Of a DNA stretch of 64,000 nt, positions 10,903 through 53,500 are shown piece by piece. A program made the position numbers and the translations under genes. A model generated the notes under the pieces. That model was not told where the DNA came from and did not search any database. It saw nothing but the letters and a program-made list of their open reading frames with translations. Numbering within the stretch: the first letter of the stretch is position 1; every line of letters starts with the position of its first letter. This stretch comes from Pomacea canaliculata (taxonomy: Eukaryota; Mollusca; Gastropoda; Architaenioglossa; Ampullariidae): assembly GCF_003073045.1 (NCBI RefSeq), contig NC_037601.1, positions 5,177,872 to 5,241,871 of the forward strand, given 5' to 3'.

Positions 10903-12220
10903 CAGCGGTTCTCAACCTGTGGGGCGCGACCCCCTGGGGGGTCGCGACGTGCCTACAAGGGGGTCGCGAAGGTGGTCATTTTTTTTTAAAAGTTTCTTAT
11001 ACCGGTATTAGTGAAATTAGTTTACATTGTGTAACCGAGTGGTGCGGGGGCTCAAACTCCAAATCTCTTCTCCCTATTCAAGTACACTGTCTCGGCATGC
11101 AGTGACTTCTCACTTCCAAAACTCAAAACACAATCCCCCTCTCAACAATAAGCCTCCAATCTCCCTCCTCTCGCCTTTTGCCCTCTCTCCACAATCTCTC
11201 ATCGCTGACTCCCCTCTCCCTCTCCAGTCACACCTCTCTTTTTTTTTTAAACATCTAAAAGGCGCGCATTCAGGAAACGTCCATCATTCACACCCTTTCA
11301 TTCGCACGTGCTCAGTCCTAGTACTCTATAGGTCCCTGACAGAAGGCCATGACCAGACAAGGGAAAGACACCACCATATTACAAACAACTGACAAGATGA
11401 ATGCTTTCGTCCGAAAAATTTCGTTTTGGACGCAAAAGATACTCCAAGAAAATATTTTTGATATGTTTCCGTGCTTGTGTAAGTGCAAGGCTGACAACTT
11501 GAATCTTGATCAGGTGAAGAATGTAATTATTGCCCATCTAAACAGACTGCAAGAAAGGTTTCAGCATTATTTCGCTGAAATTGATGTGACTAAATACGAT
11601 TGGATTCGTAATCCATTTCTGGCTGATCCTAGCACAAGCGGGTTGTCGACAGAAGAAGAGAAGCTCATCGACCTTTCGAGTGACCAATCCCTGAAAATGG
11701 TCTTCCAAACAACACCAGTGCCAACATTCTGGATTAGCATCAACGGTGAATATCCTCTCCTTTCTGAGAAAGCAATGAAAGTTCTGCTGCCATTTTCAAC
11801 TTCGTATGTGTGTGAGCAAGGATTTTCAGCATTAGCAGCACTGAAGTCTCAATACAGAAATCGTGTGGACGCAGAGGCTGAGCTGCGAATAGCAGTGGGT
11901 ACGAACATCGCACACAGGTTCGCTTCTCTATGCAACAGCAAGCAGGCTCAACCTTCTCATTAATCAAAGTGAGTGTCCAATAAAATAATATTTATTAGCA
12001 CCACAGAATTTGCTTTAGTAAAATTTCATTAACAGTTATACTTCTTGCAGATACGAACTTTGTTCTTCCGTTGTTGATTTCCTCGACGCGGCGTTCGAGG
12101 TTAGCTAAGGCTCTTCCCCCCCCCCCCCCGCTCTTCCACCGACCTAGCTGGCTAAGGGGGTCGCGGACGTACCGGTGTTCGTCAGGGGGGTCGTCACATG
12201 TAAAAGGTTGAGAACCGCTG
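10903..12220 (+). mobile_element. hAT (Charlie-like) DNA transposon, internally deleted
   Basis: The left end CAGCGGTTCTCAACCT and its exact complement AGGTTGAGAACCGCTG at the right end give perfect 16-bp terminal inverted repeats. The flanking 8-bp duplication CTTTAAAT (10895-10902 and 12221-12228) is perfect, as expected for hAT elements. A GC-rich subterminal palindrome follows the left end (about 10925-10950). At 1.3 kb it is far shorter than an autonomous hAT, and only the C-terminal part of a transposase remains. Non-autonomous. The clean ends suggest fairly recent movement. Confidence 0.95.
11349..11963 (+). pseudogene. hAT transposase, C-terminal remnant with dimerisation domain
   Basis: An open frame of 204 codons inside the hAT element. 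Residues about 125-190 show the hAT C-terminal dimerisation pattern: FWISINGEYPLL, then LLPFSTSYVCEQGFS, then KSQYRNRVDAEAELR, as in ZBED5/ZBED8-like proteins. The N-terminal BED finger and most of the RNase-H-like catalytic region are absent, so it cannot transpose DNA. The first ATG is probably an accident of the deletion, and the conserved part begins near residue 17. The frame is uninterrupted, so it could still yield a dimerisation-only peptide. No transcription evidence is visible. Confidence 0.85.
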
Positions 12221-25412: not shown

Positions 25413-27714
25413 ATGTTGGTTCTGCTGAGTCATCTAACTCTTATTTCAGGTAAGTGTATTTGTCCTCCTTCCTATATCTTCCAAACATTACCATTATCAT
25501 CATTATTATTGCCATCATAGTCGTTGTCATCAAAATTACCCTCATCCTCCTCGTTGTTATCATTGTCGTCACCAAAACTCCTTCATAACTTCCGCCGCAA
25601 TTATTCGTGAAAAAATTAAGGAAATATCGCCATAATTATTTCACGTGGTTGGATTGCTCAGCGGAATGTTTTTGTTTAGTAAGCTCAGCGGGATTCCAGA
25701 ACTCGGTATGCCTGGAACCTTTGCCGGTACCCCACGCCTTCCGAAAGTGGATTCCAGACGCAGACCCCAGGTACGGCAACGTGCGCTACGACTGTATGGA
25801 TGGTTACCAGGCATCCACCAGATCCACCACGCGAACGTGTGAGATGCTGAGCCAAACCGTCTATGGATATTCGGATGTACACCCTGTGTGTGAATGTAAG
25901 TTGGTTGGGAATATTATGGGCTTACAGAAGTACAGCTGCAGACTTGTGCGAGTACTTATAGGGATCGAACACAGCAGGTGTGGAGCCATATACCTCATAC
26001 AGTAGGTGTGGGGCCATATACCTTAAACAGCAAGTGTGGGGCCATATACCTTAAACAGCAGGTGTGGGGCCACATACCTCATACAGTAGGTGTGGGGCCA
26101 TATATATCATACACAGGTGTGGGGCCATATACCTCATACACAGGTGTGGGGCCACATACCTCATACAGCAGGTGTGGGGCCATATACCTCATACACAGGT
26201 GTGGGGCCATATACCTCATACAGCAGGTGTGGGGCCATATATATCATACACAGGTGTGGGGCCATATACCTCATACACAGGTGTGGGGCCATATACCTCA
26301 TACAGCAGGTGTGGGGCCATATATATCATACACAGGTGTGGGGCCATATACCTCATACACAGGTGTGGGGCCACATACCTCATACAGCAGGTGTGGGGAG
26401 ATATACATGAGAAAGTTTTACGGACTTGTGGATACATGGAGCGCTGTACTTCGTCGGCTCGTCTTCCGTTTCGTCTGCTTGTTCAAATCTGGTGGAATTT
26501 TGAAGGGGTGCTGGGGCTTAATCCGACCCAAATCCAAAGTTTAATTTCTAAATTTATGTACAGTTAGAGGTACACCTAGAAGTACCATGTGTGTACACCT
26601 CCAACTCACGAAATGCACACGCACGCGCAATCTCTCTCTATCTCTATCTCTCTCTCTGTCATGCATAAATCAGGTGTAGAAAATCGATATATCAATACAT
26701 ACATATGGAATCAGGTAAAAGATGAGCAGTTTAAAAACTCCTTTGAAGGTCGAAGTGCACAAGCTTTACAACCAATTTATCAGGATTCTGAAAAGACTTT
26801 AAAATATTTAATGACTGTGTGAAATAAGCTGCGGTGTGTGTGTGGACAAAGAAGACAAGACTGACGGCGACACAAGGACTACATGAGACTAGTTCGTAAA
26901 ACACTGCACCACACGTTGAATGTGACATAATGTACACTACCCTGGGTAGCAACGCCATCAACATCTCCCCTCCCGCCTCCCTACCCCGCCTCCCACCCAC
27001 ACACACCCTGTATAACCAAAGACTGTTCAAAAAGGATTAATGATGATTAACCTCGACTTTAAGGGCTAAGTTAATCTAGTCACAAATGATCGAATAGCAA
27101 TATTGATTTGGGTTTGTTTGTCAGAAGCACAGTATGAGAACGAACGAATGTTTGCATGCTTTTAATGAGAGATGTTCAGATTGTAACTAACAAAATAATA
27201 ATGAACACTTGAACAACAGCGAGCGTTTTATGGAATATTGAGTTTGTATGGAATATTCGGCAATTCTAATCATTTGTCATCATCTACCTGCAATTAGACA
27301 GGCAATTAAAAGTTGTGATGACAAAGTTTTGATTGGGCATCACGTGTGCAAATACAGGAAAGGATGGAATATGTTATCTGTCCATTATGTGTAAATGTTG
27401 GAGAAAATGAAATCCTCTTTGTACTTCTCTGCCCGTTCCTGGGTAGCCTGAGAATAAAATTTACTGATTGCAAATATTTTAGAAAAACAAATCTCTTTCG
27501 CTTTGTGTTGCTCTTGCTTATAAATAATGAAGAAAATTTCGTATTTTTCTTTATTGTGGATTTAAGAACAGATAAAAATCAGTATCCTAAATAGTAAGAC
27601 TTGTATTGAGTAGGCTGTACAGATTGAAAGACCCCGACATTTTGCTTTGTCACGATCTTAAAATGTCCCGTTGTTACCTTACACACCCTTCCCAAGGTGA
27701 CTAAAGACCTACTA

Positions 27715-27766
<52 letters not shown>

Positions 27767-27872
27767 AAAAAGACAAGAAAGACAAGAAAGAAAGACAGAA
27801 AAGAAAGACAGAAAGAAAGAAAGAAAAGAAAGAAAGAAAAGAAAGACAGACAGAAAGACAAGACAGAAAGAC

Positions 27873-27904
<32 letters not shown>

Positions 27905-27913
27905 AGAAAGAAA

Positions 27914-27983
<70 letters not shown>

Positions 27984-30900
27984 TTCCAGATCAAAGGATA
28001 AAATAAAAAGAAATACACATACATCAGTTACCAACGACCAAAAATTATAACTTCAACAAAACTAGAATATACGCCTTCCATGAAGAGCGCCACACTCTCT
28101 TAACTACTCGAAAGCGAACGGAAGACGAAAAGATGAATTTCAGCGCATGCGCGTGCAGATGTAATGTGCTCCGCGTGTTTCACGGTGTTACGCATTACTA
28201 ATCATAAACATCATGGGTGCGATGTTCTCGGACTGTTTCCCATTTTCGGGAAATGTGTGTGTGTCTCAGTCCGAGAACACGACAGGGCCAGTTAGAAATA
28301 TCACACGATGATCAGAGATGTAGTCTCGAGCCATTCCTTGCAGTGAACTGTATGGAGGCCAGAAATATTTCCGCCGCCAGCAAGGTCTGGAACACCACCC
28401 TCGAGGGCGGCCGCACGTCGTACGCGTGTCTGGAGGACTACGGAACTGATGCAGGAACTGTAGACTGCCTCCCGACTCTCTCTGGCTGGAGCCACATCTT
28501 GCTGTACTGTAAAGGTGAGACCACCTCACTTCTTTTGAAAAGATCAGTGTCAAATAACGGAATGATATCTGTTTATTTGCATGTGTTTCATTTTTCTTAT
28601 AATTAGCATTCTTTGTTTTTATTTGTTTGTGAAACGACATTAGTTCTTTGCTTTACACTGTTGAGCTTTAGTGTGCTTTGTTTGGTTGATTTGCTGTTAT
28701 TTTAATTATTATTTGATATTGGTTTATGTTTAGAGAACTTAAAAACTTTTTGTTTTGATTTTGGTTTATGTTTTTGTTTTTTGTTGTTGTTTTGTTTTGG
28801 TTTCGGTTTTTTGGTTTCTTTTGTTTTGTTTTGTTGTTTTTTTTTTGTTTTTTTTTTTTTGTTTTGTTTTTTTGTATTTTGTGTCTTGCTTTGGGGTCGT
28901 TTCAGTATTTGGTTAGTTCACCTCATGAACACCCACCGCAGTCTGAGTTCCGGGTATGTTTCTGGTTGAACAGCATCGCTGGACCTACGGACCGCATCTG
29001 CGGTGCAAGACGTTGGTGCGAAGGACACCGCCCCCGCCTCTTTGGCCATCGACGGTGACCCCGCGACCTGCAGCGCCACCAGAACCGCCTTCCGCCCGCA
29101 GCTTAACATTACACTGGCCGGCTATCAGGTGGACGTCATGGCCGTCAGGCTGACACTCAGGCTGGACGCCACAGGTCTGCCAATGTCATCAGCATTTTTA
29201 TGATGTCGATGTGGAGAAGAGAGTCTGAATAGTCAAAGAGTCGATGTGGGGAAAAGACCATGCATACCCCGGGTGTCGATGACATAAAAAGACTTTGTAG
29301 TATGGCAACCAGCCTATGTCAAAGGCGATCCGGGTGATTTTATTATTATATTATCATCATCGTCGTTGTCGTCGTCATCATCATCATAAAGGTCATAGTG
29401 AAGGCACGCCTATGTCATAGCGTACGAAACTACAACCGATATTTGTGCTGGTATCTGTGAAAATGAATTAAATTTAATTATGCCGGAAATAACTCTCACA
29501 AATAAAAGATAAATGTGGGCAATAAAACGTTGTGACAGCCATTTTATTCAGTCTCATGGAAAAAAAAAACCACCTTCTCATACTTGCAGATCAGCAGATC
29601 TTAGTTCGAGCGGAGGTCAGTGGCGGAAAGTTAAGCAAGTGCGATGCGGTCAACGTCAGTCGAGCGGATGTCGTGAACGGTACGACGCAGGTAAGGTTGC
29701 AGTGCTCGCAGTTTCCCAACAAGCCATTCGGAAACCTCCTGGTCCTCACTGCCACCTTTGGGGACGCTCAAGGCCGCCTGCAGGTCTGTGACGTCGATGT
29801 CAAAGGTCGTCATCATTTAGGTAAACAAAAATCCTAAAGGAGTTTGTTTGATACTAAGATTTGGGGATTTTATAGTATTAAAGTATAGAAAGGAAAACAA
29901 ATTTGTTAACAGTTACAATTCGCTCCATGCTGGGTTGATTAACCAACAGAACGTCATCAGCCAGGTCGTGAGCGATCTCTCGTGACTTGCTGGATCACGT
30001 GACTTTAGTCAGCAGTCCATTAGGCTCGTGCAAAGACAGAACGAAATAGTCTTTGTGGTTCAGAAAACAGTAGATAGTAGTCAGGTCTGTTATTGCTGTC
30101 TGTTATACCGCTTGTGTTAAATGTAATTATCATATGTGTGTGTCTGTGAGTAGTTGAGATTGCATGCATACTCACGCTTCAGTGGTGCATCTATTTTTAG
30201 GCACCTGTGACTTCCCATCACGCATTTATCCCCTCCGATTGGTCAGCAACAGTCTGACGTCATTCATGATCGACAACTTTGTCTCCTACGCGTGTCAAGA
30301 TGGCTTCACGCCCATCAGCGGCTCCGGAAACATAAGCTGTGGCGTGGACTCACAATGGACTTCGCCCACGCTTCGATGCACAGGTGGTGGACCAATCTGT
30401 ACACAGGACTGGCAGCTGAAGGATTGTTTGTCACGATGGATGACAGGATTGACAGAGTGATTGATGAACCGCAGGAGAAGGAGCGACAGAATATATTTGC
30501 CAAAGTCATTGCTTTTAAAATATTTTTTTTAAATAACCTCTATCGCCGAAAGTTTTTTACAGTGACGATGTCGTGAATGAATTCATTGCCTATTGACTTT
30601 TTTTTTAAGCGTTCGATTAACTGATTGATTTTGAATATCTGCAGACGAAATTGACAGAGCAAGCACGGCAATACTCAACATAACGAATACAAGCACTGGG
30701 TGGCGTGCGTTTCTTACCTTCGAGCCACAACTCGAAGTCTTCGGTGTGTACGTCACAAAGAAAGGTGGGGAGTTGTTTTTTTGTTTGTTTGGTTGTTGTT
30801 GGTTTTTTTTTTTTTTTTTTTGGTTTGTTTTGTTTTTTTTTTTTGTTTGTTTGGGGGTTGTTTTTTTTTTTTTTTTGTTGATTTTGTTTTTTGTCTTGTT

Positions 30901-32383
30901 TACTTCCTTTAAAATTTTCCGTTTGCTCACGTTGTCATACCATATCATATTTTGTTCCTTCACCTCCACCAGGTAACACGACAGTCACCGTGAAGTCACG
31001 TGAGGGCGCCACCAGGACCTGCACCGTGACCCAGGATAGTGACTACAGTAGCTACACTCAGTGCACCCAACGTCCACTTGCAATGACGGTGGAAGTGCTA
31101 GTAAAAGCTAACAGGTTTCAAAAATCAGACATCAAGGTCTTCGGCCGGCCTTTTCAAGGAGGCATGTCTCATTCAATCTAGGAAGAATGTTTTGTACGGG
31201 GCAATGCATCTAAAAATGGGATAGCTTGTCATAAACAAGTATTCACCTATCAAGGAATATCCTGACTCTGGCTTTCTTTTCTAAAATTTCTTATAAAGCA
31301 AATGCTGGCTTTTTACCAGGTTATAACTCCCTACTTCAACTGGCTTCTTAATTATAAAAATATAAATTAAAACCTTTGTCCTCATTTTTATTGGATTTGA
31401 TTTTCGTGTTCGTTCATCAACGGTATATGGTAAATCAAGATATATATATATTCTACCTATTGATCCCAAAGTCAAATTATTTTCAGCAAAATAGTTTTAT
31501 TGTAGAGTGTAATATTTTTGTGGCAATTGCAATCCTCTTTGTCCACCCTCCTTTCTGCTGCTTTGTGTTTCAGTACAGCCTCAATTATTTCTTCTGTTCA
31601 CAATTGGGGATTGTTTCAGCCTTGGAGTGCCTACAAACACCAACTGGTACAGAGTACAAAGGACAGTTAAACGTGACTAAATCCGGGCTCAGCTGTCTCC
31701 CGTGGGCAGCAGTCGATGACTCGCCATACACAGAAAACATGTTCCCTGACGACATTTTCAGCAGACGAGACAACTTTTGCCGCAACCCTAGAGGCGACCG
31801 AGCTGCACCATGGTGCTATGTCAACCAGAAAAACCTCAGTTTGGAAGAGTGTGACCTACTTAGCTGCGGTAAGTCTGTGTGATGTGCTCATTACTTCCAT
31901 CAGATGAAGCTGTGTGCTGATGTCTAGGTTCACCCCGAGAATCCAGCAGTCAAATAACTGGTATAACACTTCATCGTTGTTCTCTTCTTGCACTAGTAGT
32001 GGAAATCACGAGATACCTCTTAATCTTCTGTTCTTTCTTGGGCTTATATTCACGGATAGCAATATAACTATGGGTAACTACAACTAGCAGGTTGTTAACC
32101 TGACAGGCAAACGAACTTCATGAGCTACCCAGGAGATAAAGTTAAGTTACTGAACGGCATAGCAGGAGTTCTCGATACAGCTATTCCACGTGAGTTTTGG
32201 GGTCAGAGGGTGAGGCGTGAAACATTTAAAACGAGAAACATTTTTAAACAATCGAAAGCAGGCAAGAAAAGTCAAATTTATTCATTCTGATCAAATGGTG
32301 ATCCTCGAGCAAGTATTAGACGACAGCTATTTATTTCTGTGAGCTTTGCCTTAGGGTAAGGGGAAGTCGCCGTACAAGCAACC

Positions 32384-32452
<69 letters not shown>

Positions 32453-35182
32453 AAAACAAATGAACGGTGGACAAAATCGAAGGGTACAAAGTCGATTGTA
32501 AAGGTCGGTTTCATTTTCTATAGCATCTGCTACTGTTAGATTATGAAGTAAGTGAAAACGCGCATCAGTGAGCTCAGTATTTACCGTTTTCAGTACTGTC
32601 CCATTATATCTGTTCACTTTACTTGTTAGAATAATTCAGTGTTCGCTTTGGTTTCGGTTGAGCTGTATCAATCACGACCTCCGCCATATTTACCCTTGGT
32701 GGGGGAGAGTTTTTGCAGGTCCGATCACGGACGTGTGAAGCAAGTCCGTGCGTTTGATAAAATACAGACTGGTACAATGATCTGAGTATACTTACTCCGA
32801 GTTCATGAAGACAAAGTTTGAGCTACTATTTCCAGTTAGCCGGGTAGTTAGTTTGGATAGGATAACAGGCGGGGTAAATTAATGTGCTTCATGAATACGA
32901 GTCCTCTAAAAATAACATATGCGTGGCTATCGTTCCCTTTTTTCTTTTCTTTTTTTACCTGTTGTAAATGGTCACAAGAGGGGCATTCACTCAGATTTAG
33001 GAAAATAATATCATCCACTGAGTTTTACCCGATCATTAGGAGAAAAAAACCGCTAGCCTTTTTTTAACATTTCTGTTGCCAGATGAATTCTGCAAGGTGA
33101 GAGAAGACGGAACAGACTATAGCGGCAACCTGACTTTGATGTCCAGCGGCAAGACCTGCATGAACTGGTCGGACCCACAGTTACCCTTCCGCAGAGGGAA
33201 CTACTTTCCCGATCTCGTCTTCAATCATCGATATTGTCGCAACCCGGCGGCGTCTCAGTCTGCTCCGTGGTGCTACACCACAAGCAGAGCTGGCATCGTC
33301 AGCGAGATCGAGGCTGTTAATACAACCGTGACCCTCCCTTACGACCATTGTGACATAGCTAGTTGTCGTAAGTGTCGTCAGTTTTAACAGTAAAAGAAGT
33401 CATAATTTAAATGTTCGCGGCCATCCTAGCTCGATTCGAATTCATGAATGTATTATTATATGATTGTATCTCATTCATGCTATAATGACCATAAGTCACT
33501 GACATGTAAGAGAGTGTGTCCTTTTGGTAACAGAAGTGTGTTCAGAAATGGAACACCTTAGTTTAGAGTGGATGTTGCTACTTTACCTTCACTCCGCGCT
33601 TGTTACCTGTACCTGTATTAACAAATGTGTGTCTTAATGACCAATAAAACGCCAACTCCAAACTTTTCAGCTACCAATGTCAGTTTTATCTACCTTGCCC
33701 AAGACAACGTTGACAACTCTCCATATGCTTCTGTTACTAAAGAATGTAACGGTGGAGACTTGCGTCACTTCCGGTCAAGCCTGGCCAGTTTTGTACGTCA
33801 AATATGTTTAAACGCCAGCAACAGGATTGCAACAACTTTATGCCTTTTCAAAGACAAAACAAAACATACGTTTTGGGCTTTCGTTCTCATTTCATGTCAA
33901 GGTATGCACCATATCTTTAACAAAAATTCTGTTTTGTTGTTGTTGATGGAATTGTAGCAGTGATGATGTTAATGATATTGGTTATAGTGGTCTTGGTCAT
34001 GTAAAGATCGCAGATTACTGACAACAACAACAAAAAGTTCATGCTCTCCTGTACATCACTTCTCTACTTTTCGCAACAACAAACAAAAAAACAAAAAAAA
34101 AAACCCGCTCCGTAACTCGTCCCTTGAAAAAAATGATTTGCATGGTTGTCGTGAGGCGAAAGATCTGAAATAAAAAATAGACAAAATCAGTAAGTCATTA
34201 TGCTATTACAATTCCACGCCTCACATTTTTGTTTTCAGATTCTCCGACTGTAACAATGTCTTCGCTGGAGTCTGAGCCGGAAGCTACGTTATTCCCGTCA
34301 CAAGCTTTCAATTTCTCCCATCTCGAGCAAGGGACAACGTCATCCATGTCATCTAATGTGGATTTGCCTGCTTCACCTGTTATTCAAACCGGGATGACAT
34401 CAATTCTAACTGTTAACCTGATTTCGCCACCTCCGTCTGTTGTGTTTAGCACAGAGAATGTGGAAGCAGGACAAACGCGTTCTATGCTCCCTTTCTCTGT
34501 CTTGACGTTGAGCGACAGCTTCGATCCAAATTCTTTTCTCGCCAACATGGCAACGTCACTCGCTACTCCTCCTCTGTCTCCACCCTCCGAACGCTCCCTC
34601 GCCGTGGGAAGTGATGTGGCGGCTAACCTTTACAGCGTGAAAGTGTTGCAAAGTCCTGACGACTTTCAAACATACATAACTAATACCCTTGAACCCTTCG
34701 TAACGGACACAGTTATCACAACCCTACCTGTGCCAACCACTGCATCGACTAGCAACTCTCGGACAAGTATCATCACCATTGTGCCGAGCACGACGTCGGT
34801 AGGTGGAGCATCAGTTGACTCTCCCGCCACCGTCTTGCCCACTCGTGCGTGCGATGGCACACAACCTTGCCGCTGCAGCTTTTTACACATCGCTTCATCG
34901 GAAAGATTGAGCGACCTCGAGTCCTTCACAAGATCGGTTCAGGAAAGTCTCAGACTGAACACGACGACTCTGTCAAAGAGAAGAAGAAAGCTAACGAGTG
35001 CTCAGGACTCGAGACTTTCGTCCATTGCAGTTGGTTCGTTCGCAGCCGGAGTGCTAGTTTTTACATGTCTCCTGGTCAGCGCCGGTGACATCATAATCTT
35101 AGCTGAATATATTCTCAATAAACCCCATCCAAAACAGGATGAGCATGAACTGGTAACTTTGGGTTCCAAACGAACTAAATGA
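25413..35182 (+). CDS. Sushi/F-type-lectin-like/kringle type I membrane protein
   Basis: Twelve coding exons: 25413-25449, 25689-25895, 28344-28514, 28974-29174, 29590-29820, 30201-30383, 30645-30764, 30973-31161, 31620-31868, 33083-33367, 33671-33901 and 34239-35182. They join into one 3048-nt frame (1015 residues). Every junction is phase 1 with an AG acceptor, and all donors are GT except the eighth, which reads AG/GC. Order: signal peptide (1-12, h-region LVLLSHLTLI), sushi x2 (13-138), F-type-lectin-like (139-282), sushi (283-343), F-type-lectin-like (344-446), kringles (447-624), four-Cys module (625-701), Ser/Thr stalk (702-905), CxC-helix-basic motif, TM (about 964-984), 30-residue tail. 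Many NxS/T sites suggest glycosylation. Probably a cell-surface adhesion or recognition protein; the ligand is unknown. An in-frame ATG at 25332 would give a longer, poorer signal. Exon borders are inferred, not transcript-tested. Confidence 0.8.
25977..26405 (+). repeat. 27/28-bp minisatellite with 82-bp higher-order period
   Basis: About 15.5 units of AGGTGTGGGGCCATATACCT plus CATACAC or CATACAGC. Unit variants (TATATATCATACAC, CCTCATACAC, CCTCATACAGC) recur as triplets of about 82 bp. It lies in the intron after the first sushi exon. Open frames run through it in several phases because units lack stops, so they are not genes. Confidence 0.95.
26910..27015 (-). repeat. Dispersed repeat, copy B (minus)
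   Basis: Reverse-complement partner of 23133-23236. It lies in the intron between the first two sushi exons, so the pair brackets the first two exons of the gene. Confidence 0.7.
27346..27560 (+). mobile_element. LINE C-terminal fragment
   Basis: The frame reads CPLCVNVGENEILFVLLCPF and then RIKF, matching the CPLC-x-E-x-E-x-H-x-L-x-CP-x-(Y/F) tail found after the reverse transcriptase of several LINE families. It is short and decayed, inside an intron. Confidence 0.55.
27715..27983 (+). repeat. (GAAA)n microsatellite
   Basis: About 270 bp of GAAA with CAGA/CAAGA interruptions, intronic. Lys/Arg/Glu and Phe/Leu/Ser ORFs from it are artefacts. Confidence 0.95.
28767..28885 (+). repeat. T-rich low-complexity tract
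   Basis: TTTTG-rich sequence with T runs up to 11, just upstream of an acceptor. Intronic. Confidence 0.8.
28974..29820 (+). other. Module: first F-type-lectin (discoidin)-like domain
   Basis: Two exons (28974-29174 and 29590-29820). The start resembles the fucolectin/F5-8C pattern, with TASAVQDVG, PASLAIDGDPATCS and an Asn-Ile-Thr-Leu strand. The second exon ends LQCSQFPNKPFGNL and LQVCDVDVKG, the usual closing Cys-x-Val strand. I cannot find the His and Arg-x-Asp residues of the canonical fucose pocket, so sugar binding is doubtful. The donor after 29174 is GTCTGC, a weak but in-phase GT. The second exon uses GTAAAC at 29821. Confidence 0.65.
30201..30383 (+). other. Module: third sushi domain
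   Basis: A single phase 1-1 exon with cysteines in GTCDFP, YACQDGF, NISCGV and LRCT, plus the conserved Trp in SQWTSP. Classic sushi spacing. Confidence 0.85.
30645..31161 (+). other. Module: second F-type-lectin-like domain
   Basis: Exons 30645-30764 and 30973-31161 resemble the core of the first F-type-like module but start at a later strand, so this copy seems to lack the N-terminal third (no AIDG-like turn). Cysteines lie in RTCTVTQ and TQCTQ, and the exon ends KVFGRP. No in-phase GT donor exists at the exon end. A GC donor (G/GCATGT at 31161/31162) keeps phase 1. Confidence 0.55.
30775..30905 (+). repeat. T-rich low-complexity tract
   Basis: T runs of 10-18 with TTTG interruptions, intronic. 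May serve as an extended pyrimidine tract for the acceptor at 30972. Confidence 0.8.
31620..33367 (+). other. Modules: two kringle domains
   Basis: Exon 31620-31868 encodes a kringle with six cysteines (LECLQ, LSCLPW, DNFCRNPRGD, APWCYV, EECDL, LSC). Exon 33083-33367 encodes a second (EFCKV, KTCMNW, HRYCRNPAA, APWCYT, DHCDI, ASC) with a longer loop before the fifth cysteine. Kringles bind proteins or lysine-type ligands in other families; the ligand here is unknown. A 1.2-kb intron containing an (ATT)n array separates them. Confidence 0.9.
32384..32450 (+). repeat. (ATT)n microsatellite
   Basis: About 22 uninterrupted trinucleotide units, in the intron between the kringle exons. Confidence 0.95.
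33671..33901 (+). other. Module: four-cysteine domain of unknown type
   Basis: A phase 1-1 exon of 77 residues with cysteines in KECNGG, RQICLNAS, TTLCLF and LISCQ. I do not recognise it as sushi, kringle or CUB. It could be a decayed lectin-like or mollusc-specific module. Confidence 0.6.
34239..35182 (+). other. Modules: Ser/Thr stalk, juxtamembrane motif, TM, tail
   Basis: The last exon encodes about 200 residues rich in Ser, Thr and Pro (mucin-like stalk). Then comes a Cys cluster CDGTQPCRC and a predicted amphipathic stretch LSDLESFTRSVQESLRLNTT. A strongly basic RRRKLTSAQDSR follows, then a hydrophobic span beginning SIAVGSFAAG and a short hydrophilic tail ending KRTK. I recall similar Cys-x-Cys, helix, basic, TM endings from predicted molluscan membrane proteins. 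Confidence 0.75.
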
Positions 35183-38092: not shown

Positions 38093-38633
38093 GTATCAGG
38101 CTCGCCGACATCCAAGTACCAAAACAAAAGACGTTTCTAATGCAGCCATCGGTTTGTTACTTTTTTTTCCCCATCTTAACTTTTCATTATTTTTTTCTGT
38201 TTTCAAGTCACGTGCATTTTTTGCCGTTTTTTATTGCATTTTTCTCGTGTCGCATAAATAACTTAATATTCGTGCTAGTACATTGTTCACTTGTGTGTGA
38301 TTTCCTTCTGTAGTTTACTTATTAAGAGGCCTAAAGTGGGTGCAAGGAAAAAAAAATTCTTAGCGTTAGTGAAAAAAATCGTTTGTGAAGCGGTTTAAAA
38401 ACAGAAAATACATTATCAACATTCATTCATTGCACTCTCAAATAGAAAACTCGATTGTTGTAATAGGTTATTGGTTACTCTGATTATTCTGTGTTGATAT
38501 TTAGCGATAAACGCTTGTCCAACTGTGAACCCTGTGGTTTTTATTTTACTGCATGCGTTTCATAGTTCCAGTTTCAGTGATATTAACTAAATCACTTGGT
38601 TGGCTTTGTTTTCAGGCCACATTAGCAAGTAAA

Positions 38634-40475
38634 ATGCCGACAACTCCAGAATTTCCGAAAATGCAGGTGAAACTTTCAAATGTCTGCTGTGTGTGTCTGA
38701 CAAGCATCAAAATCAAACATAATGTGCCGAGGACATCTAAAGTAAAGCCTGCTGTTGTTTGTTCATCTCACTGTGTTCAATATTTTGAATGTGTACAGAG
38801 TTTTTTACAAGGTTTTATGCTGTGTGAACTCCTGCACATTCTTGAAGGAAGGCCTCTACCTTTCAGAATACAATCGACCCTTAACTCAAGAGACATACAA
38901 AAAGAGTACAGGGATAACTTGGGACCTGATCCAAAGCCTGATGAGAATCAATCAAAGGCAAATGATTTTGCAGCAGCATCTACATGTGATATAACAGACT
39001 CTAGCAGAAATTATTCAAAAAGCCATATGTTATTGAAGAAAAAAAGGCCATGGCCAAGTAACTTGAAGCATTCAGTAAAAACACTTCATGAAGCAGACCA
39101 TTTGTCAAAAACGCATTTCAAACCTCCCTTAAAAAAGAGAAAAATAGATCAAACAAATGTGTCTAAAAACATAGGGGAACACAAACAAAAAAGAATGAAG
39201 ATTGCCAGAAAGAACATGAGACAAAGAAAGTCAGTCAAAGAGAACCATAACAGGACAAAAAAAACGAGACAGAAAGATCTACCAGTTCCTGAAAGTGTTG
39301 TAGTTGAAAGCACAGACAGTGAAGGAAATCCTTGTACAAGGAAACTGTACAAGTGTCAAATGTGTCCCAAAACATTTATTCATAAATGCAACTTAAGGTA
39401 TCACATCAAGAGAATGCATTCAGGAGAAGACCCTGTCAAATGTGAGAGCTGCGGGCTTATGCTACAAGGATCGTATGATTTACTTCAACATACAAGAAGA
39501 GTGCATGAAAGTTACTTGGTATGTGACATTTGTGGAGCTCAGTTTACAACAAGCTGTGGACTTAAAAGTCATCTGGAGGCCCATGCAGGTGTCAAAAGTA
39601 ATTTTTGTGATATCTGTGGCAAAGGATTTGTGAGAAAAACTTCCCTCACCCAACACAGACTTCTTCACGTGGAAGGGAAGTCTTTTCTTTGTGATGTTTG
39701 CTCTCAGGCTTTCAAAACTCGATCCAGTCTGAGTGGTCACCTTTTGAATGTACATACTTGTGGGCCATACTTTGAAAACCGAGTCAAGAGTCTAGAGAAG
39801 ATGGGTTTTGTAATTGATAGAAACATAGTTGCTAGACATACCAGGCAGCTGTGTCTTAACTGTGGAGAGAAGTTGGAAGATGGTAAATGCCAGATGCATC
39901 CTGAAGTCGTGCAAGATTCCCTGTTCAAGTGTAGCAAGTGTGGTCCAGCTGAAAGAGATTTCAAAGACATTGTTGCCTTTGACATTCACATGAAGTGGCA
40001 TTATGAGAAGGTGTCCCATAGTGGAAGGAAGGCTGACTGTGGTTGGAAAACAGGTAGTGGTATGAAAGAAAAGCCTCTCGTATCTGGTGAGTTCAAATGT
40101 GATGTGTGCAGCAAGATCTTCAAGAGCAGGACATACCTTTGGGCTCACATGAACCAGCACAAAGACAAGAGATTCTCCTGTGATATTTGTGGGAGAAAGT
40201 TTACATACAAATGCAACCTTAAGTCACACCTTATCACACACCAAGAATCTCGACCGTTTGAATGTGATGTGTGCAACAAAGCTTTTAAAATGAAATCCCT
40301 CTTAGCATCTCATAAGATTCTCCATGGTGCACCTAGTCCTTTCAAGTGTGAAATCTGTGGCAAGGGTCTTACCAGAAAACAGAATTTAAAGAGTCACTAC
40401 AAAATTATGCATCCTGAAACACAGCAGAGGGCTTTCTTAGTGACAGCACAAAGTCGTAGTGAGGTCGACAGTTAA
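38634..40475 (+). CDS. C2H2 zinc-finger protein, ten fingers
   Basis: 613 residues from the ATG at 38634, uninterrupted to the stop. An upstream in-frame ATG (38553) is disfavoured because TTTGTTTTCAG just before 38616 looks like a splice acceptor, leaving MPTTPEF as the first codons after it. Domains: a Cys-rich N-terminus (CCVCL, then CSSHC, ECVQSF), a long Lys/Arg-rich linker with KKRKIDQ and KKKRPW nuclear-localisation patches, then fingers in two blocks. Fingers 1-5 begin YKCQMC, VKCESC, LVCDIC, NFCDIC and FLCDVC. A CLNCGEKLEDGKCQMH knuckle and a degenerate sixth (FKCSKCG) follow, then 7-10 (FKCDVC, FSCDIC, FECDVC, FKCEIC). Linkers are not the TGEKP type. Probable sequence-specific nuclear regulator; target unknown. 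The coding part is intronless, unlike its neighbours. Confidence 0.85.
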   Translation: MPTTPEFPKMQVKLSNVCCVCLTSIKIKHNVPRTSKVKPAVVCSSHCVQYFECVQSFLQGFMLCELLHILEGRPLPFRIQSTLNSRDIQKEYRDNLGPDPKPDENQSKANDFAAASTCDITDSSRNYSKSHMLLKKKRPWPSNLKHSVKTLHEADHLSKTHFKPPLKKRKIDQTNVSKNIGEHKQKRMKIARKNMRQRKSVKENHNRTKKTRQKDLPVPESVVVESTDSEGNPCTRKLYKCQMCPKTFIHKCNLRYHIKRMHSGEDPVKCESCGLMLQGSYDLLQHTRRVHESYLVCDICGAQFTTSCGLKSHLEAHAGVKSNFCDICGKGFVRKTSLTQHRLLHVEGKSFLCDVCSQAFKTRSSLSGHLLNVHTCGPYFENRVKSLEKMGFVIDRNIVARHTRQLCLNCGEKLEDGKCQMHPEVVQDSLFKCSKCGPAERDFKDIVAFDIHMKWHYEKVSHSGRKADCGWKTGSGMKEKPLVSGEFKCDVCSKIFKSRTYLWAHMNQHKDKRFSCDICGRKFTYKCNLKSHLITHQESRPFECDVCNKAFKMKSLLASHKILHGAPSPFKCEICGKGLTRKQNLKSHYKIMHPETQQRAFLVTAQSRSEVDS

Positions 40476-42808: not shown

Positions 42809-45800
42809 TCAACTAATAGTGAGAACATCATTTTGAATCTCAATGCTGAGATTTGTTTGCAGATCACTCAATTTCTTTTTCAAGACACTAAGTGCTGAGA
42901 ATATAATACTTTCAGGTTTAAGAGATCCACAAGATTCAATGTTGAAGAAAAATTTGTTTGGTTTCCCATTAGGATCATACGGCGCCTCATCTGCAACATA
43001 CACCAAAAAGGGGTGGTTTTTTTTTTTGTTAATTATGCATAATGACACTGTCAAACAGACAAAAAATATTTTTTCGAGTGGTCCTTTATCTAAAATCAAA
43101 AACAACATAATCTTTACATTTTCCCATCTGTAACCAGAGGAATTTGTAACCCAAAACTTTCAAAGTAAAATAAATCTATAAGTGCCAAGATGTCTGTTAA
43201 CATACATTGATCACTTTCCGGATCAAGCTCAGAGAATTCACTTCTTGGCCTGCAAAAAAAATAACATTAGACTTATTTAATGACATAAAAAATGCAGTTT
43301 TGCTTCAGAAAGTCTATAAAAAGTGCAAATCATACACCATTTTATATCTGTAGTAAAAATCTACTATTATATTAGAAATCACCACTCAAGGAAATTATAC
43401 ATTTTGTAATAATCAAAGTTTTAAAGTATCAACGGCATAAAGCTAAATTCCTACAAATCAAACTTTTCTTGCAAAGTCTAATTAATACACAACTGGCACT
43501 CACCACTCCTCTGGTTTGGGATATGTGGTGTGTCGAAAAGCATTGTCTGGATCATACTCAAATGGGACACCAGTTGTTGGATTCCATTTAGCATGCTCTT
43601 TAGCAAAACCTTTCCTGGCAAAAGCTCGAATTTTCAGCTCTTGACCTTTTCTCAATTTGCATATAAGGATATCTGTGCATGACAATTAAAAAACAGCAAG
43701 TGAATTTCCTTTGAATGTCAAAATACACTTACACCTAAATAAAGATGAAAAAAAGTTTATAAAAAGCGGGGAGGTGAGAATCCAAAAGCAAGGCATAACT
43801 GCTTCTTTATGTGAGTTCTGCATGTCATCTTGAATTCAGATCAGGTGCCACCACTTTTTGTTTAGACTGTTCCTGTACTCAAGCATTATCCTCAACAAAG
43901 TCCTCAGTATCTTCTGCTCAAAGCAGTAGAAAAAGGAAGTAGGGAGAAGTTCACACCACCAACTAAAATAAAATAATCCCAAAGTGGCAGTCAACTGTAA
44001 CTGAGACTCACTATGTCTTAAGGCACAGAATATAAAAGACCCCAACCCTTACTTTCTGCCAATCCTTCACTCAGACTGCACTTACTAACCACATGCATGC
44101 AGAATTCATCTCTTACCACCAAACTATTAAAAAGCTTAGGACATGGCACCCATTTGAAAGACGATACATGTCAGCATATAAATTACACTACAATGTTCTT
44201 ACCATCTGCATCTTCATATTCACTGGCTTCTTGGTGCCTTCGTGATGTAACCTGTTGTTGAACATCAGAATTTACTCACTGGATTAAAGGCTAAAATGGC
44301 ATCTTTTACTATAGACCATCCCCGAAGATAATAGCATAAAATTACATACCCTTCTTTGAATGTATACTACACAATGTAAACATTTTATAACAAGAGTGTT
44401 AGCTCCTCCACACAAAACTACTATTTCCAATTCCTACATTATAACCAAACCTGATGAAGTGCAAACATAAAAAGAATAATTACTGGAATGACTTTGGGAT
44501 TACTTGAGATGAGGTCTGCACTTGTGACATGACGGGTCTGGTCATCTGAGCATCTCACATCAAGTGTGAACTCAACTGAACACTCTGCACAGAACTCCTC
44601 ACAAGTGCAATCCTAGAACAAAAACATGTTCAAACAATTTGCTACATTACCTGTAATGTACATAAATGATGAAAAGTGATTTTATATAGAAAGTAATATC
44701 ATATGCAAGATGATTATATTGATCCTTCAAAAGTTAAATACAGCTTAAATGCCAAGACTTTTATTAACAATGAAAAGCACCAACAGTTTTCAAAGAATAA
44801 TAGACATATTCTATATACTGAATGACTTGCTAAAGTGATTTTTAAAGCTTAAATGCTTTAAATGTTACTAATAAATCACAGATTAATTTTTCTCAGCAGG
44901 GAAGTACACATGTTTTCCATAAACACAAACATGAAAAATATCTCCATACTCTTGCATACTGCATTTTGTCAACAACTTCATCACTTGTCAATGGGATAAG
45001 TCCAAGTCGATGAGAAATAAACTCATCAAACAGCACAGAAGAGTTTGCTTCAAACTGTACCCAGTCAATAGCTGCACAATAAGGAATACTTGGAATGTTA
45101 AACCAATTCAAAGAAAATAACATCAATGTGAGGGATAATTGTTAAGTGTCAGTAATATACCAAACAGTTTGTTTGCAATGCCGACTCAAATCGCCATATA
45201 AAATAAGGATTAACTGAATCAGTCTATCTATCTATTCCTCTTCGTGCATCAGGTTGCACATAAGGCCTCAACCAGAGTCCGCCACCGATGTCGATCGGCT
45301 GAAACCCGCTCTAGGTGACCCCATGTCCAGCCCTTTCCCTTCATCTCCCTTTCCACTGTTCTTCTCCAAGTTTCCTTTGGGCGGCCTCGTTTTCTTCGGC
45401 CGTCTGGAGTCCATCGTAGGGCGACTCTGGAAAGGTCTGCTGTCTGCTGGCGGAGCACATGTCCAATCCATCGCCAACGCCTTCGTTGAACCTGCGTGGT
45501 GATGGACTCGGTTTCAGTTCTTCGGTGGAGTTCTTCGTTGGTGATGGTGTTTGGCCAAAAGATGTTAAGTATGCGCCTGAGGCATCTGTTTTGGAAGACG
45601 TCAAGCTTGTTACTGATGGTTTTGGTCATCTTCCAAGATTCTGATCCGTAAAGGAGGGTGCTGATCACATTTGACTTGAAGATTCTCAGCTTGATCTTCT
45701 GGCTGATGTTTTTTGCCTTCCATGTGCTCCTGAGTGAGGCGAAGGCCTGGCTGGCTTTCGCCAGTCGGGCTCGAATCTCCACCTCCGCATCCCCGGTGTT

Positions 45801-48800
45801 TGACATTTTGGACCCAAGATAGGTGAAACTGTCAACTTCCTCAATCTCTTCTCCATTTAGTTTGATGCTGTCTTGGATTCTGGCGTTCACTCTCATACTT
45901 TTCGTTTTCTTTGTGCTGACCTTCAAGCCAAGGTTTCCAGCTGTTTCTGAGAAGGCCTTTGTTTTTTCCTGCATGTCTTGGTGGCGGTGTGACAGCAGGG
46001 CAATGTCATCAGCAAAGTCTAAGTCTTCTAGCGCTGTTGTTGCTGTCATAGTCATGGTCCATCTGATCCCTCTCCTCTCACTGTCGGTGGAAGTCTTCAT
46101 GATCCAGTCCATGGCCAGGATGAAGAGGAACGGCGACAGAATGCAGCCCTGCTTCACCCCGGTACCGACGTTGAAGGGGTCTGTGAGCTCCGTGTCACAG
46201 ACAACCTGGGATTTGAAATCGCTGTACAGCATTGCAATGACCTGAACAAGTTTTGCAGGGACTCCGTAATGTCTCAGGATCTTCCATAAGGACTCGCGGT
46301 GGATGCTGTCAAAAGCCTTCTCCAGGTCGATGAAATTGATGTACAGCGGTGTGTTCCATTCGTTGCTCTGCTCCAGAATCTGTCGCAGAATGAAGATGTG
46401 TTCAGAGCAGGATCGCCCAGGGCGAAATCCTGCTTGCTGTGGTCGGAGGTCTTTCTCAAGAGTTGCCGTCAGTCTTGACAAAACAATCTTGCTGAAGACC
46501 TTGCTGGTGAGGGAAAGAAGTGTTATGCCCCTCCAATTATTGCAGTCTCCAAGATCTCCTTTCTTGGGTAACTTGAAGATGAGCCCTGTCTTCCACGCAA
46601 CAGGGACCTGCCCTGATTCCCAAATTTGCCTGAAGATTTCAGTCAGCTTGGGAGCTGTCACATTTATATCTGCTTTCAACATCTCTGCTGTTATTCCATC
46701 TGCCCCTGGTGCTTTGCCGCTCTTCATTGTCTTGACTGCTGCTGTCACTTCTTCCAGGCTTGGTGGGTCTGTGCAGATGTCAAGGTCTATAGCTGCTGGC
46801 TGGATGTCTGCAAGCTGAGGGGGATCTGGTCTGTTCAGAACCGACTCAAAATGTTCCCTCCAGCGCTGTAGTTTTCCTGCCTCTCCCTCTATAACATTAC
46901 CGCTCATGTCTTTCACTGGAACATCACTGTTCTTAAACCTGTTGTTTAGCTGTTTGTTTATCTTGTACAGTGTCTTCAGGTCATTTTTACTTGCTGCATT
47001 TTCTGCTTCATCTGCCAGTTTCTCTATATGGTCTCTTTTGTTGGTTCTTGCCATTCTCTTTACCTCTTTGTTTAGTTTTGTATACCTTTGTCTGAGTTGT
47101 TCCTTCAGGCGTTCAGATCTGGTGCTGTTGATTCTTTGTTTGGCTGACTTTCTCTCTTCTATCTTCTTCCATGTCTCTTCTCTGATCCACTGTTCTTTCT
47201 TTTTCCGTTGGAAGCCCAGTATTTTCTCTCCTGATTCCTGTAAGACTCGATTGAAGTCGTCTAAGGTCATCTCTTGTTGGTCTCCTAGTGCCTGGAACCT
47301 GTTCTTTACTTCCATAGCAAAGGCCCTTTCGGTGGCTGGACTTTTCAGTTTGCCAGAGTCCACTCTCTGCTGACGTGCCTGTTTTCCTCGTGATCGACGC
47401 AGCTTCAGAGAAACTGTGGCTATCACAAGAGTGTGGTCACTGGCAATGTCTGCTCCTCTGTAGGCTCTAACATCTTGAAGTGAGCTCCTCCATTTTCGGT
47501 TGATGATGACATGGTCTATCTGGTTCTTTGTGATCCCATCTGGTGATGTCCATGTTGCCTTGTGGATGTCTTTGTGTGGGAAGAGTGTGCCTCCAATCAG
47601 TAGGTTGTTTTCTTCACAAAAGTCTGCCAGTCTCTCTCCGTTGTCATTGATGGTTCCGATTCCATGTTTGCCCATGACATGCTCCCTGTAGGTGTTGTCA
47701 CTTCCCACCTTGGCATTGAGATCACCGATGATGAGCAACATGTCATGGGCTGGAACGCTTTCTGAGGCTGCCTGGAGCTGATCGTAAAAAGCATCCTTGT
47801 CTTCTGCCTCAGAGTCATTTGTTGGTGCATAGCAGGCTAGCACTGTCAGCTTGGTGTACTTTGAATGGAATCTTGCTCTCAAAAGCCTGGGTCCATAAGG
47901 CTTCCATTCCAGCAGTGCCTTTTCCGTTTTCTTGTTGAGGAGTAGAGCTACTCCTTCAGAGTGCTGAGCGTCTGATCTTCCTGAGAACAAGATGGTATGT
48001 CCTGACGCTAGTCTCCTCTTTCCCGTGCCGGTCCATCTGACCTCACTGACTCCCAGGATGTCCAAGTTGTAGTTGTCAAACTCCTTAACTAATTGGAGCA
48101 TCCTGCCAGTCTGGTACAAGGTCTGGACGTTCCAGCACCCCACCCTCAACTTTTGCCTCGGCTTCAGTAAATCCGCTGTCGGGGCGCCAGCTCCCTTTCG
48201 GGTTTGGCTGTCGTCCATCATTAGTCCAGTCTCCTGGTGTGCTTCATTACCTTCGCCATCTGTGACGAGTTCTCTGGTTTTAGTTTCTGTAACATGATTT
48301 TTTTTTACATGGTGGGGTTGTTAGCCCTACCACAACCTATTTTACCTCTAGGTGAGGTGTCCACCTTAGTCGCCTCTTACGACATGCCTGGCTGGATGGC
48401 AGGGACCCTATTCTTACAATGCTTGCTAGGCAAGCATACCCCGGGGTCCCACAGGGGAACTGAATCAGTAGAGCAGCAAAATTTTTCATTTCCATTTGCA
48501 TGACAATAATTGTAACAATAATAGAAAAATGTAATCTCTATCATTAATCACTTTGCATTTCTCATAAAGCATATGCTAAAAAAGTATCATGTAGTTGTTT
48601 AGAACTCTAAACAGCTATTACAGCTAGACTTGTTTGTCAGCCCTTTATAATTATTATTTTGCAAAATTATTAGTTTTGTATTTAATAAGAGTGAATAGCA
48701 GATAATCAAATTTTTATTCTAATTATGCACATTTTTATAATTATTATTCCAAACACCCTTTACCATATCACAAAATCATTATTTGTTCAATTTTAATAAG

Positions 48801-50568: not shown

Positions 50569-53500
50569 ATGTCTTCGTTTTCGGATCCAAACCTTGTGAA
50601 AAAGCTGGGAGAATTGAACAATACACAGCAAAGCATCCAGACTTTGTCATTGTGGTTGATTCATCACCGAAAGCATGCTCCATCAATCGTTAAAATATGG
50701 CACCGTGAACTGATCAAAGGTGAGTGCATCGGCTGTTTTGGGTTTCTATGCCAACTTTGCGATGCATCTTTCTACAGCGGGCACACAAGCATTGCAATTT
50801 AATTGTAATCACTTTATCATAAAAACACAATAGATGTATTGACAGATTAATGACCAGTATAAAGACTGGTAAAAATTCCAAATTTAGGGAGTTTGTAACT
50901 GAGCCGCTACGTTCCAGTTGTTTTTTTTTTTTTTTACATGCCAGTGTAATCAGCATAGCATGGTAGTTCTTGTTTAATTCTATACTTTTTCACCAGTATT
51001 AATTGTATAGTGATAATGAGAAATTTTCTTCACATTGTAAGAAAATATAACTACTCAGCTTCAACATTATTATTCAAAATAAGCACTATATCATTAAACA
51101 CATGTTTATTAACATTAGTGAAGTTATCCAGTTGCACAAAAATCTGGATCTTCGGGATTAAGAAGTTGCTGGAAAAGTTTCCCTACTTTCAAAAGAGGGT
51201 TTTTGTTTGTTTGATTGTTGGAAATGTCTAAAGGGAACAAGACTAAAAGTTTGTTGGTAAGAGCTGGGAAATATGCATCTGTGATATCTAATTAAAACAT
51301 TTTTTTTCAAGGTTGTTCTTGCCATATTTGACTAGGCTTTCTCCAGTACAAGAGTGGAACCTTTTATTATTGACCAGTGTTGTTTGTCATTTCCAGTGGC
51401 CCACATTCAGTGCCATTTACAGATTAATAAAGTTATACAGTGCTGTAGTAACATTCACTTAAGGTCTGTAGCCGGACTGACCCTCGCCAAAGGCTAACAC
51501 CGCACGACCCTACATTAGCACCTAATCAGTCTGTTCCTCTTTGGTGTTCCAGGGAAGAGGATGGAAGTTCCCAAGGAGAATTTTCCACTAAAAATTCTAG
51601 CTCTCTGGTACATCGGGTGCGTTGTCTAGTCTCTACCTCACGTTGTGTTCTTTTTTCCTATCCACCCACTACGCATCCGCACTCAGCCGACCTTGGAGTC
51701 CACAAAAGACCCTGCTTTACTTGCTCAGACTAAAGTGTCTTTTCTATCGGTGCATCAGTTCCCATGATCTTCAGGTGTGTTCTCTCTGCTGTTGGGTCAC
51801 GACTACACGGACAACATCAATCTCACTCGCACTAGTGATACACATTCATCTCATTCACACGACGAGGACACATGTACAACACACTAGCATTTGTTCAGAC
51901 TAACGCTCACACTGATAAATAGGTTCAAAGACATATATTTAATTGCATAATTTACACATACAACTACTATATCTATTCTAATCTACCTAGCCTACCAAAA
52001 CCTAGCACCTAACTCCCTGGGGTGGGGAAAGAGGTGGTTGAGTGAGGTGAGCCGCTTCTCAGCGGACTAAAACACCTTGCAGCAAAATGGTACTTCTCGC
52101 TCGCTCAGGACCCAATGTTTTACTGCTTTTCCAAGTAGGAACGGTTCCCATGCCGGGAAAACAGGTGCAAGCGCTTTTCCCCACCATTAAAGGCAGGCTC
52201 AAAGTGCTTTACTAAAAAGAAAAACTCACAAAGATAATAATAATGAATGCTGGTCTGAAAAACAGTAATGTTCAGTGTTCTTATCATTATTTACGCTTGC
52301 TCCCTTCCTGCCAGCACCAGAATTTGAAGTTGATCTTCACAAAGCAAGGATTGGTAAAAGCAGTGTCTTGAATTTCAAATGTAGACCAGTAAAAGAAAGA
52401 TTTATCGAAATACTGAATTGGAAGTTTTAGGGCAAAAAAGTTGAGAACAGAGCACAGTCCTGGCACTGAAGAAGCAAAGGAGACAGCAGGCCAGTGACAC
52501 ACAGGGAACAAGATGGAGGATAAAACAAACACATCTTATCACCAGATGGCATTGCTGAAACACATACATCCAGAATTTAATCTACAAAACATGTAGCAAT
52601 ATACGTGGTCTGCAAATGTAAATGAGTACCTTTGAAAACCTCTAACTACTCATTGATAGAAGACAACAGCAAGAAAGCCAATCTCTGCTCCAGATTGGCT
52701 ACCTGTGCTTGCTATATTTTGTCTCTATTTCATTGTTTGTTGAATGTCTTGTCAGTGACAATTTTGCTTTCTATCACCAAATTTGTTAATAACAGTCTAT
52801 CAGGCAGCTTATTTCCACTCCTCTCCAGAATCTTAGAAAAAATGTTTCTCAAACACTTCAATGATCACTCTTTGCTTGCCTCTCAGCAATCAGCCAAATG
52901 TCCATCACACATCACTGAGACTGCAGTGCAAAGTTATACATTTCATCTTGCTAGATCTTGATCATGGAGATCTGTCTGTTTTGACTCTGCTTGATGTCAG
53001 TCAAGTTTTGACCACACCATAGTTGCACCATAGAGGCATTACGGAGTCCCTGCAAAACTTGTTCAGGTCATTGCAATGCTGTACAGCGATTTCAAATCCC
53101 AGGTTGTCTGTGACACAGAGCTCACAGACCCCTTCAACGTCAGTACTGGGGTGAAGCAGGGCTGCATTCTGTCCCCGTTCCTCTTCATCCTGGCCATGGA
53201 CTGGATCATGAAGACTTCCACCGACAGCGAGAGGAGAGGGATCAGATGGACCATGACTATGACAGCAACAACAGCACTGGAAGACTTGGACTTTGCTGAT
53301 GACATTGCCCTGCTGTCACACCGCCACCAAGACATGCAGGAAAAAACAAAGGCCTTCTCAGAAACAGCTGGAAACCTTGGCTTGAAGGTCAGCACAAAAA
53401 AGACTAACAGTATGAGAGTGAACGCCAGAGTCCAAGACAGCATCAAACTAAATGGAGAAGAGATTGAGGAAGTTGACAGTTTCACCTATCTTGGGTCCAA

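Follow-up and report, generated by a model that had tools for sequence, protein, structure and literature searches.

What is encoded at positions 25413-35182 of the window, the window being the whole stretch of 64,000 nucleotides of Pomacea canaliculata DNA that was analysed (C12:5177872-5241871), and is the order of modules found there peculiar to one gene? A sequence-only reading had proposed a surface protein of 1015 residues, encoded by twelve exons with phase-1 junctions throughout. Exon number, single frame and phase are borne out by the rebuilt gene, which runs on the plus strand from an ATG at 25413 to a TGA at 35182 (Table 1); the product comes to 1018 residues instead of 1015, with no internal stop, and all 11 introns are phase 1. 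Because phase-1 sites can be chosen deliberately by a reader, splice sites near every module edge were scored with phase ignored, using generic weights. Phase 1 was top-scoring at 20 of the 22 sites, 10 among the 11 donors and as many among the 11 acceptors; the donor of exon 4 and the acceptor of exon 9 depart from this. In exons 2 and 11 a neighbouring phase-1 acceptor outscores the one modelled, the donors of exons 4, 6 and 10 score weakly, and intron 8 requires a GC donor, the lowest-scoring donor of the gene. Exons 2 to 11 are all class 1-1, and skipping any one of them keeps the frame. Each F-type-lectin-like module is cut in two by a phase-1 intron; twelve exons are thus not twelve modules. 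Modules lying between phase-1 introns place the predicted product among class 1-1 exon-shuffled proteins, such modules being the rule of animal exon shuffling in the accessible part of PMC8001218.

Table 1 Exons of the rebuilt gene and what they encode (window positions).
Feature	Position	Strand	Content
Exon 1	25413..25449	+	Start codon plus the larger part of the signal peptide (by eye), 12 residues; phase-1 donor gtaagt, top-scoring donor of the gene
Exon 2	25680..25895	+	End of signal peptide and sushi S1, 4 Cys; Pfam Sushi 0.045, below cut-off
Exon 3	28344..28514	+	Sushi S2, 4 Cys; itself without Pfam match
Exon 4	28974..29174	+	First half of F-type-lectin-like F1; carries the AIDGD cation-type motif
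Exon 5	29590..29820	+	Second half of F1, 3 Cys; 37% identity at two C2 places, alone E 0.15 and 0.16
Exon 6	30201..30383	+	Sushi S3; Pfam Sushi 1.1e-7
Exon 7	30645..30764	+	First, shortened half of F-type-like F2
Exon 8	30973..31161	+	Second half of F2; GC donor (gcatgt) at 31162
Exon 9	31620..31868	+	Kringle K1, complete within a single exon; Pfam Kringle 2.4e-19
Exon 10	33083..33367	+	Kringle K2, insertion ahead of the fifth Cys (alignment); Pfam Kringle 2.1e-13
Exon 11	33671..33901	+	77-residue module X, 4 Cys; without recognised family
Exon 12, first part	34239..34849	+	Ser/Thr/Pro-rich stalk
Exon 12, last part	34850..35179	+	Anchor cassette: CxC, helix, RK-rich SAxDxRxSS motif, membrane helix with conserved Asp, short cytosolic tail

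Intron 2 holds a tandem repeat (25971-26406; periods 55, 82 and 137), and a long AAAG run lies at 27714-27982. Elsewhere in the window are a long open reading frame encoding C2H2 zinc fingers (38529-40475; Pfam 6e-37), a retrotransposon frame on the minus strand with endonuclease and reverse transcriptase and 1023 codons open (45249-48320), a related fragment on the plus strand (53034-53660), and a hAT transposase fragment (11340-11963; Pfam 9.6e-5). Scanned for Rfam families and tRNAs, the window gave no match.

The modules follow one another as signal peptide, S1, S2, F1, S3, F2, K1, K2, Cys module X, Ser/Thr/Pro stalk and membrane helix. A Pfam search of the whole product, a check that the sequence-only reading had proposed, recovered the Kringle family (2.6e-30, two stretches) and the Sushi family (7.8e-8, likewise two stretches when matches up to E 10 are included). 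Both kringles have six Cys and belong to PF00051 (69.9 and 50.8 bits; cut-off 34.3), and they match the kringles of plasminogen and HGF among PDB sequences. In its kringles the product resembles plasminogen, HGF and ROR, from which it differs in that no protease or kinase is matched in it by Pfam. Of the three sushi modules first named, S3 clears the cut-off of PF00084 (32.6 bits against 20.7; E 1.1e-7), but S1 falls below it (14.6 bits) and S2 has no match; at sister loci elsewhere in the genome each of these two passes once, S1 on contig C2 (5.4e-7) and S2 on C12 (9.3e-5), while Pfam Sushi is not matched by S2 at C2 or by S1 at C12. A direct alignment of S2 with S3 was equalled by 7 of 500 shuffles. 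Kringles and sushi modules are protein-binding modules in known families. Module X, encoded by exon 11, has no match in Pfam or among PDB sequences; as a query against the genome it retrieves its own locus and a single weak match that contains a stop (E 1.26), and its low-confidence predicted model (pLDDT 60) would consist of a helix and a hairpin; a fold search with this model gave nothing at E <=0.001. A reading as a degenerate kringle was tried and not adopted: the spacing of three Cys fits by eye, but the alignment is at chance level (43 of 500 shuffles equally good against K1, 466 of 500 against K2).

The F-type assignment rests on profiles; Pfam detects neither F1 nor F2, and F1 alone gives no F-type match among PDB sequences. 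A plain alignment of F1 with F2, the latter being shortened N-terminally, scores weakly (equalled by 41 of 500 shuffles). Six F modules drawn from the three loci were combined in a profile, whose best match among 177,635 PDB sequences is FBP32, an F-type lectin of fish (E 0.0013; runner-up 0.2). When this profile is set against an F-type profile, hhalign gives E 0.008 with a probability of only 4.9%; the corresponding value for kringles is E 0.34. When two modules from contig C5 were added and F1 of the C2 sister was left out, FBP32 was matched at 7e-10 and eel agglutinin at 1.1e-5, and hhalign gave E 3.8e-7 with a probability of 92.9%; the gain is in part due to the added C5 modules, one of which alone matches Pfam F5_F8_type_C_2 at 8.7e-6, slightly under the cut-off. 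A profile built from the four sister modules only retrieves F1 (5e-8) and F2 (3e-4), the best of 2000 shuffles reaching 0.027. The profiles thus support a kinship with F-type lectins, as the sequence-only reading had suggested. Exon 8 as a CUB domain (Pfam CUB_CDCP1_1, 0.003) was rejected, the match being under the cut-off and confined to one of six modules.

In the accessible part of PMC5712786 the fucose-binding motif of F-type lectins is given as HX24RXDX4(R/K). F1 does not conform to it: it keeps the R and D of the motif, and it has A at His52 and Q at Arg86, retaining one of the three triad residues. His52 is kept in none of the eight snail F modules examined. Because the fucose triad is lost, lectin activity cannot be assumed, and the ligand of the F-type folds is probably not fucose. 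AIDGD in F1 would correspond to the cation motif h2DGx, and both positions of the Cys50/Cys146 pair are held as well; across the eight modules both Cys of the equivalent pair are present in five and both absent in three (one via a gap), F2 being without it. Of the second disulfide, Cys108-Cys124, Cys124 is aligned in all eight, Cys108 in one (C5F_2), and F1 has a nearby Cys. F1 is like fish AAA (1k12) and FBP32 (3cqo) in profile, apparently also in cation motif and Cys50/Cys146 positions, and unlike them in the replaced His52 and Arg86; their chains are not known to carry domains other than the F-type.

The genome searched (440,159,624 bases in 24 contigs) holds the same order of modules at two further loci. 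The F1 query matches C2:19650032 (E 0.15) and C2:19684818 (E 0.16), each 37% identical. Around the first of these, C2:19644500-19654499 carries S1, S2, a split F1, S3, a split F2, K1, K2, stalk and tail in the order of the present gene; besides S1, Pfam recognises S3 (8.6e-7) and K2 (1.7e-11), and K1, within which the frame shifts, is picked up by the kringle search, under the cut-off. The third locus, C12:2888000-2907999, repeats the order with the F halves placed by reading (Pfam S3 2.2e-4, K1 3.7e-22 and K2 1.3e-10, in addition to S2; S1 none); its tail lies about 7 kb past K2, with similarity confined to the membrane half, and its stalk was not identified. At neither sister was exon 1 identified or exon 11 seen. 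Module identities between the gene and the sister loci are 28-50%, and phase-1 exon ends alone were sought there, so that the phase of the sisters is no independent test. A kringle-like exon (Pfam 0.025) lies between the F1 halves of the C12 sister (reverse complement 7955-8188 of C12:2888000-2907999); it may be an inserted or a dead exon. Kringles occur at 33 or more places in the genome at E 0.01, and sushi modules at 109 or more at E 0.001. At C3:14485000-14494999 there is a tandem pair of exon sets with a Cys-rich N-terminal exon followed by sushi, sushi and kringle.

Since the same order stands at two diverged loci, the present order was inherited by duplication of an already assembled gene. 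Assembly by exon shuffling, put forward earlier, retains its phase-1 signature, but the order now seen was passed on after any such shuffling; the architecture is likewise not a one-off. The shared order bears also on whether exons 1-8 encode a secreted sushi/F-type protein and exons 9-12 a separate kringle receptor. The GC site, the weakest donor, separates these two blocks, and the frame of exon 9, open upstream from 31358, contains an ATG followed by hydrophobic residues, making a separate start possible; with both blocks in identical order at C2 and at C12, however, a division into two genes is very improbable.

At the second C2 place S1 to S3 recur in near-identical form, with no kringle or tail within 4.2 kb beyond S3. 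The five predicted exons of the two C2 copies differ at 12 of 969 sites, without gaps, whereas flanks and introns differ at about 182 of 4187 (Fisher p 5e-7; the figure of 4187 is an estimate after subtracting gaps and exons). The slower divergence of the exons indicates that they are conserved; of the whole codons changed, 4 are silent and 7 are not, so that strong constraint on the protein does not follow. The frameshift in K1 at C2 and the neighbour with no kringle or tail over that stretch show that members of the family decay. The present gene could itself be a decaying copy, its frame open but at least one splice site dead and no full product made, and the GC donor in intron 8, the shortened F2, the unmatched exon 11 and the frameshifted C2 sister would fit such a state. 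We consider it improbable, given that 1018 of 1018 codons are open, that both kringles exceed the Pfam cut-off and that, exons 2 to 11 being all 1-1, the loss of one would preserve the frame.

The sequence-only reading had ended the protein in a mucin-like stalk and a membrane helix. Both are supported: the stalk (202 residues counted) is 17% S, 14% T and 10% P with zero Cys, and the most hydrophobic 19-residue windows begin at residues 966-976. The most unusual part of the gene, which that reading took for plain stalk and helix, is a recurring anchor cassette formed by the last 110 residues. Used as a query, these residues find 27 places at E <=1, their own included; a second query, from C1, finds 26, five of them new, and the union of both amounts to 31 places on C1, C2, C3, C5, C12 and C13, a stop-riddled place on C9 being left out. 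Of these, 21 score E <=0.01 with one query or the other. Among the places read, which do not include the five added by the C1 query, one has a stop (C3:34820223). Twenty-one of the 27 first-query copies were aligned, with ends trimmed by hand (left out: near-duplicates L012, L015 and L023, diverged L030, partial L031 and broken L033). All 21 copies have Asp53, Arg55, Ser57, Gly62 and Asp80, and both Cys occur in at least 90%; the present gene shares the CxC, the RK-rich SAxDxRxS motif, the Gly and the membrane Asp. A tail profile from which the gene was excluded finds it at 4e-19, the best of 2000 shuffles reaching 0.32. No Pfam family is matched in more than two of the 21 members; DUF7524 (two members, best 0.0067) and two weak receptor chains found with the profile in the PDB (best 0.082) were taken as chance. 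Folded alone, the 110-residue tail is predicted as one long helix, confident only over residues 61-90 (block pLDDT 81-89; model mean 61.7).

An F-type Pfam match lies within 10 kb upstream on the same strand at 10 of the 31 cassette places, against an average of 0.03 for random places, and kringles lie within 20 kb at 3 of 31, against 0.01; for this baseline the length of C13 was assumed. The ten F-type matches are all on C5 and eight fall in a single tandem cluster, so that they are not independent. This cluster (C5:26844929-26922150) contains 10 cassette copies, eight with the F-type Pfam match just upstream. Together with the C5 place 26855372, where F-type exons were seen by reading, and the three kringle places, the cassette follows F-type-like exons at no fewer than 14 of 31 places; these are the places at which an outer arm was identified. 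The C5 genes (26.84-26.92 Mb) are like the present gene in the cassette and in having F-type exons in split pairs, as one of these genes shows on reading; they differ from it in having no kringle within 20 kb of the tails and, among the 109 matches listed, no sushi in that stretch. On C9 and C14 there are large expansions of F5_F8_type_C_2 exons, in which many matches end at profile positions 42-55; this suggests an internal intron as in F1. New in the present analysis is the anchor cassette itself, recurring at about 30 places without a consistent Pfam match. Similar tails presumably occur in other molluscan proteins. Tentatively, the last exon may represent an undescribed anchor module that carries different outer arms and defines a large gastropod receptor superfamily, its invariant extracellular and membrane residues binding one shared co-receptor for many diverging F-type-like receptors; we regard this as possible, at rather less than even chances.

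The architecture is absent from the full-text literature searched, a coverage outside which most subscription papers fall, and no paper found there joins kringle with F-type lectin domain, with sushi plus F-type lectin, or with Pomacea canaliculata; kringles are mentioned 0 times in the main text of PMC12549020 and 0 times in that of PMC5712786. Several known proteins come near it. In the accessible part of PMC5712786, Drosophila furrowed / CG9095 combines an F-type lectin domain, a C-type lectin domain, CCP and TM; like the snail product it is a membrane protein with an F-type domain plus sushi/CCP, and two of three fucose-binding residues are replaced in CG9095 as they are in F1, but the C-type lectin domain has no counterpart in the snail product (no Pfam match), which is therefore not of the furrowed type. 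Sea urchin SpCRL, in the same part of that source, has an F-type domain, CCP, an S/T/P domain and a factor I-MAC domain; it shares the F-type domain, the CCP and the Ser/Thr/Pro segment with the present gene and differs in its factor I-type domain where the gene has kringles, no anchor being given for it there. Limpet P-vulgata_14, as described in the accessible part of PMC7333891, is secreted into pedal mucus and contains peptidase M12A, ApeC, CUB, kringle, two sushi, C-type-lectin-like and ShKT domains. As a molluscan mosaic of kringle and sushi with a lectin-type domain it provides a precedent for kringle-sushi mosaics in molluscs; it differs from the present product in being secreted, in its protease domain and in its order, and an F-type domain is not listed for it in that part.

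These comparisons also raise, in place of a receptor of blood cells or epithelia, a gamete or a mucus/matrix protein, the outer arm of which would function in recognising the species during reproduction or, in secretions, in adhesion. F-type lectins of molluscs are already known in the form of sperm bindins, in the oyster for example (PMC5712786, accessible part), the secreted limpet protein has a kringle and two sushi among its domains (PMC7333891, accessible part), and the tissue is not decidable from sequence alone. A membrane anchor of a type present at about 30 loci speaks against a purely secreted protein, nothing found ties the gene to gametes, and we hold this explanation to be unlikely.

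The gene, which on sequence evidence is a real one, probably encodes a type I multimodular cell-surface receptor for adhesion or recognition; class 1-1 modules, stalk and membrane helix are in keeping with the surface protein first proposed. The outer arm would consist of S1-S2-F1-S3-F2, followed by the two kringles and the small Cys module, and the mucin-like stalk would hold it away from the cell, the anchor cassette common to about 30 other loci fixing the protein in the membrane. Glycoprotein, protein or microbial-surface ligands may be bound by the outer arm. The putative cytosolic end, of about 20-30 residues, has no signalling motif by eye, and any signalling would for this reason need a partner; the receptor may thus act by adhesion or via a partner protein, which might dock at the invariant membrane Asp. 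We infer its expression, surface location, ligand and partner, and an immune or adhesion role, suggested earlier, may likewise be supposed.

Molluscs are without antibodies, and by what means their surface recognition becomes diverse is still an open question. The gene unites F-type folds lacking the fucose site, sushi modules and kringles on a widely shared anchor, within a family that is both duplicating and decaying, and it may lead to an undescribed anchor module. If the anchor does bind one partner, a whole class of receptors would be testable by a single knock-down.
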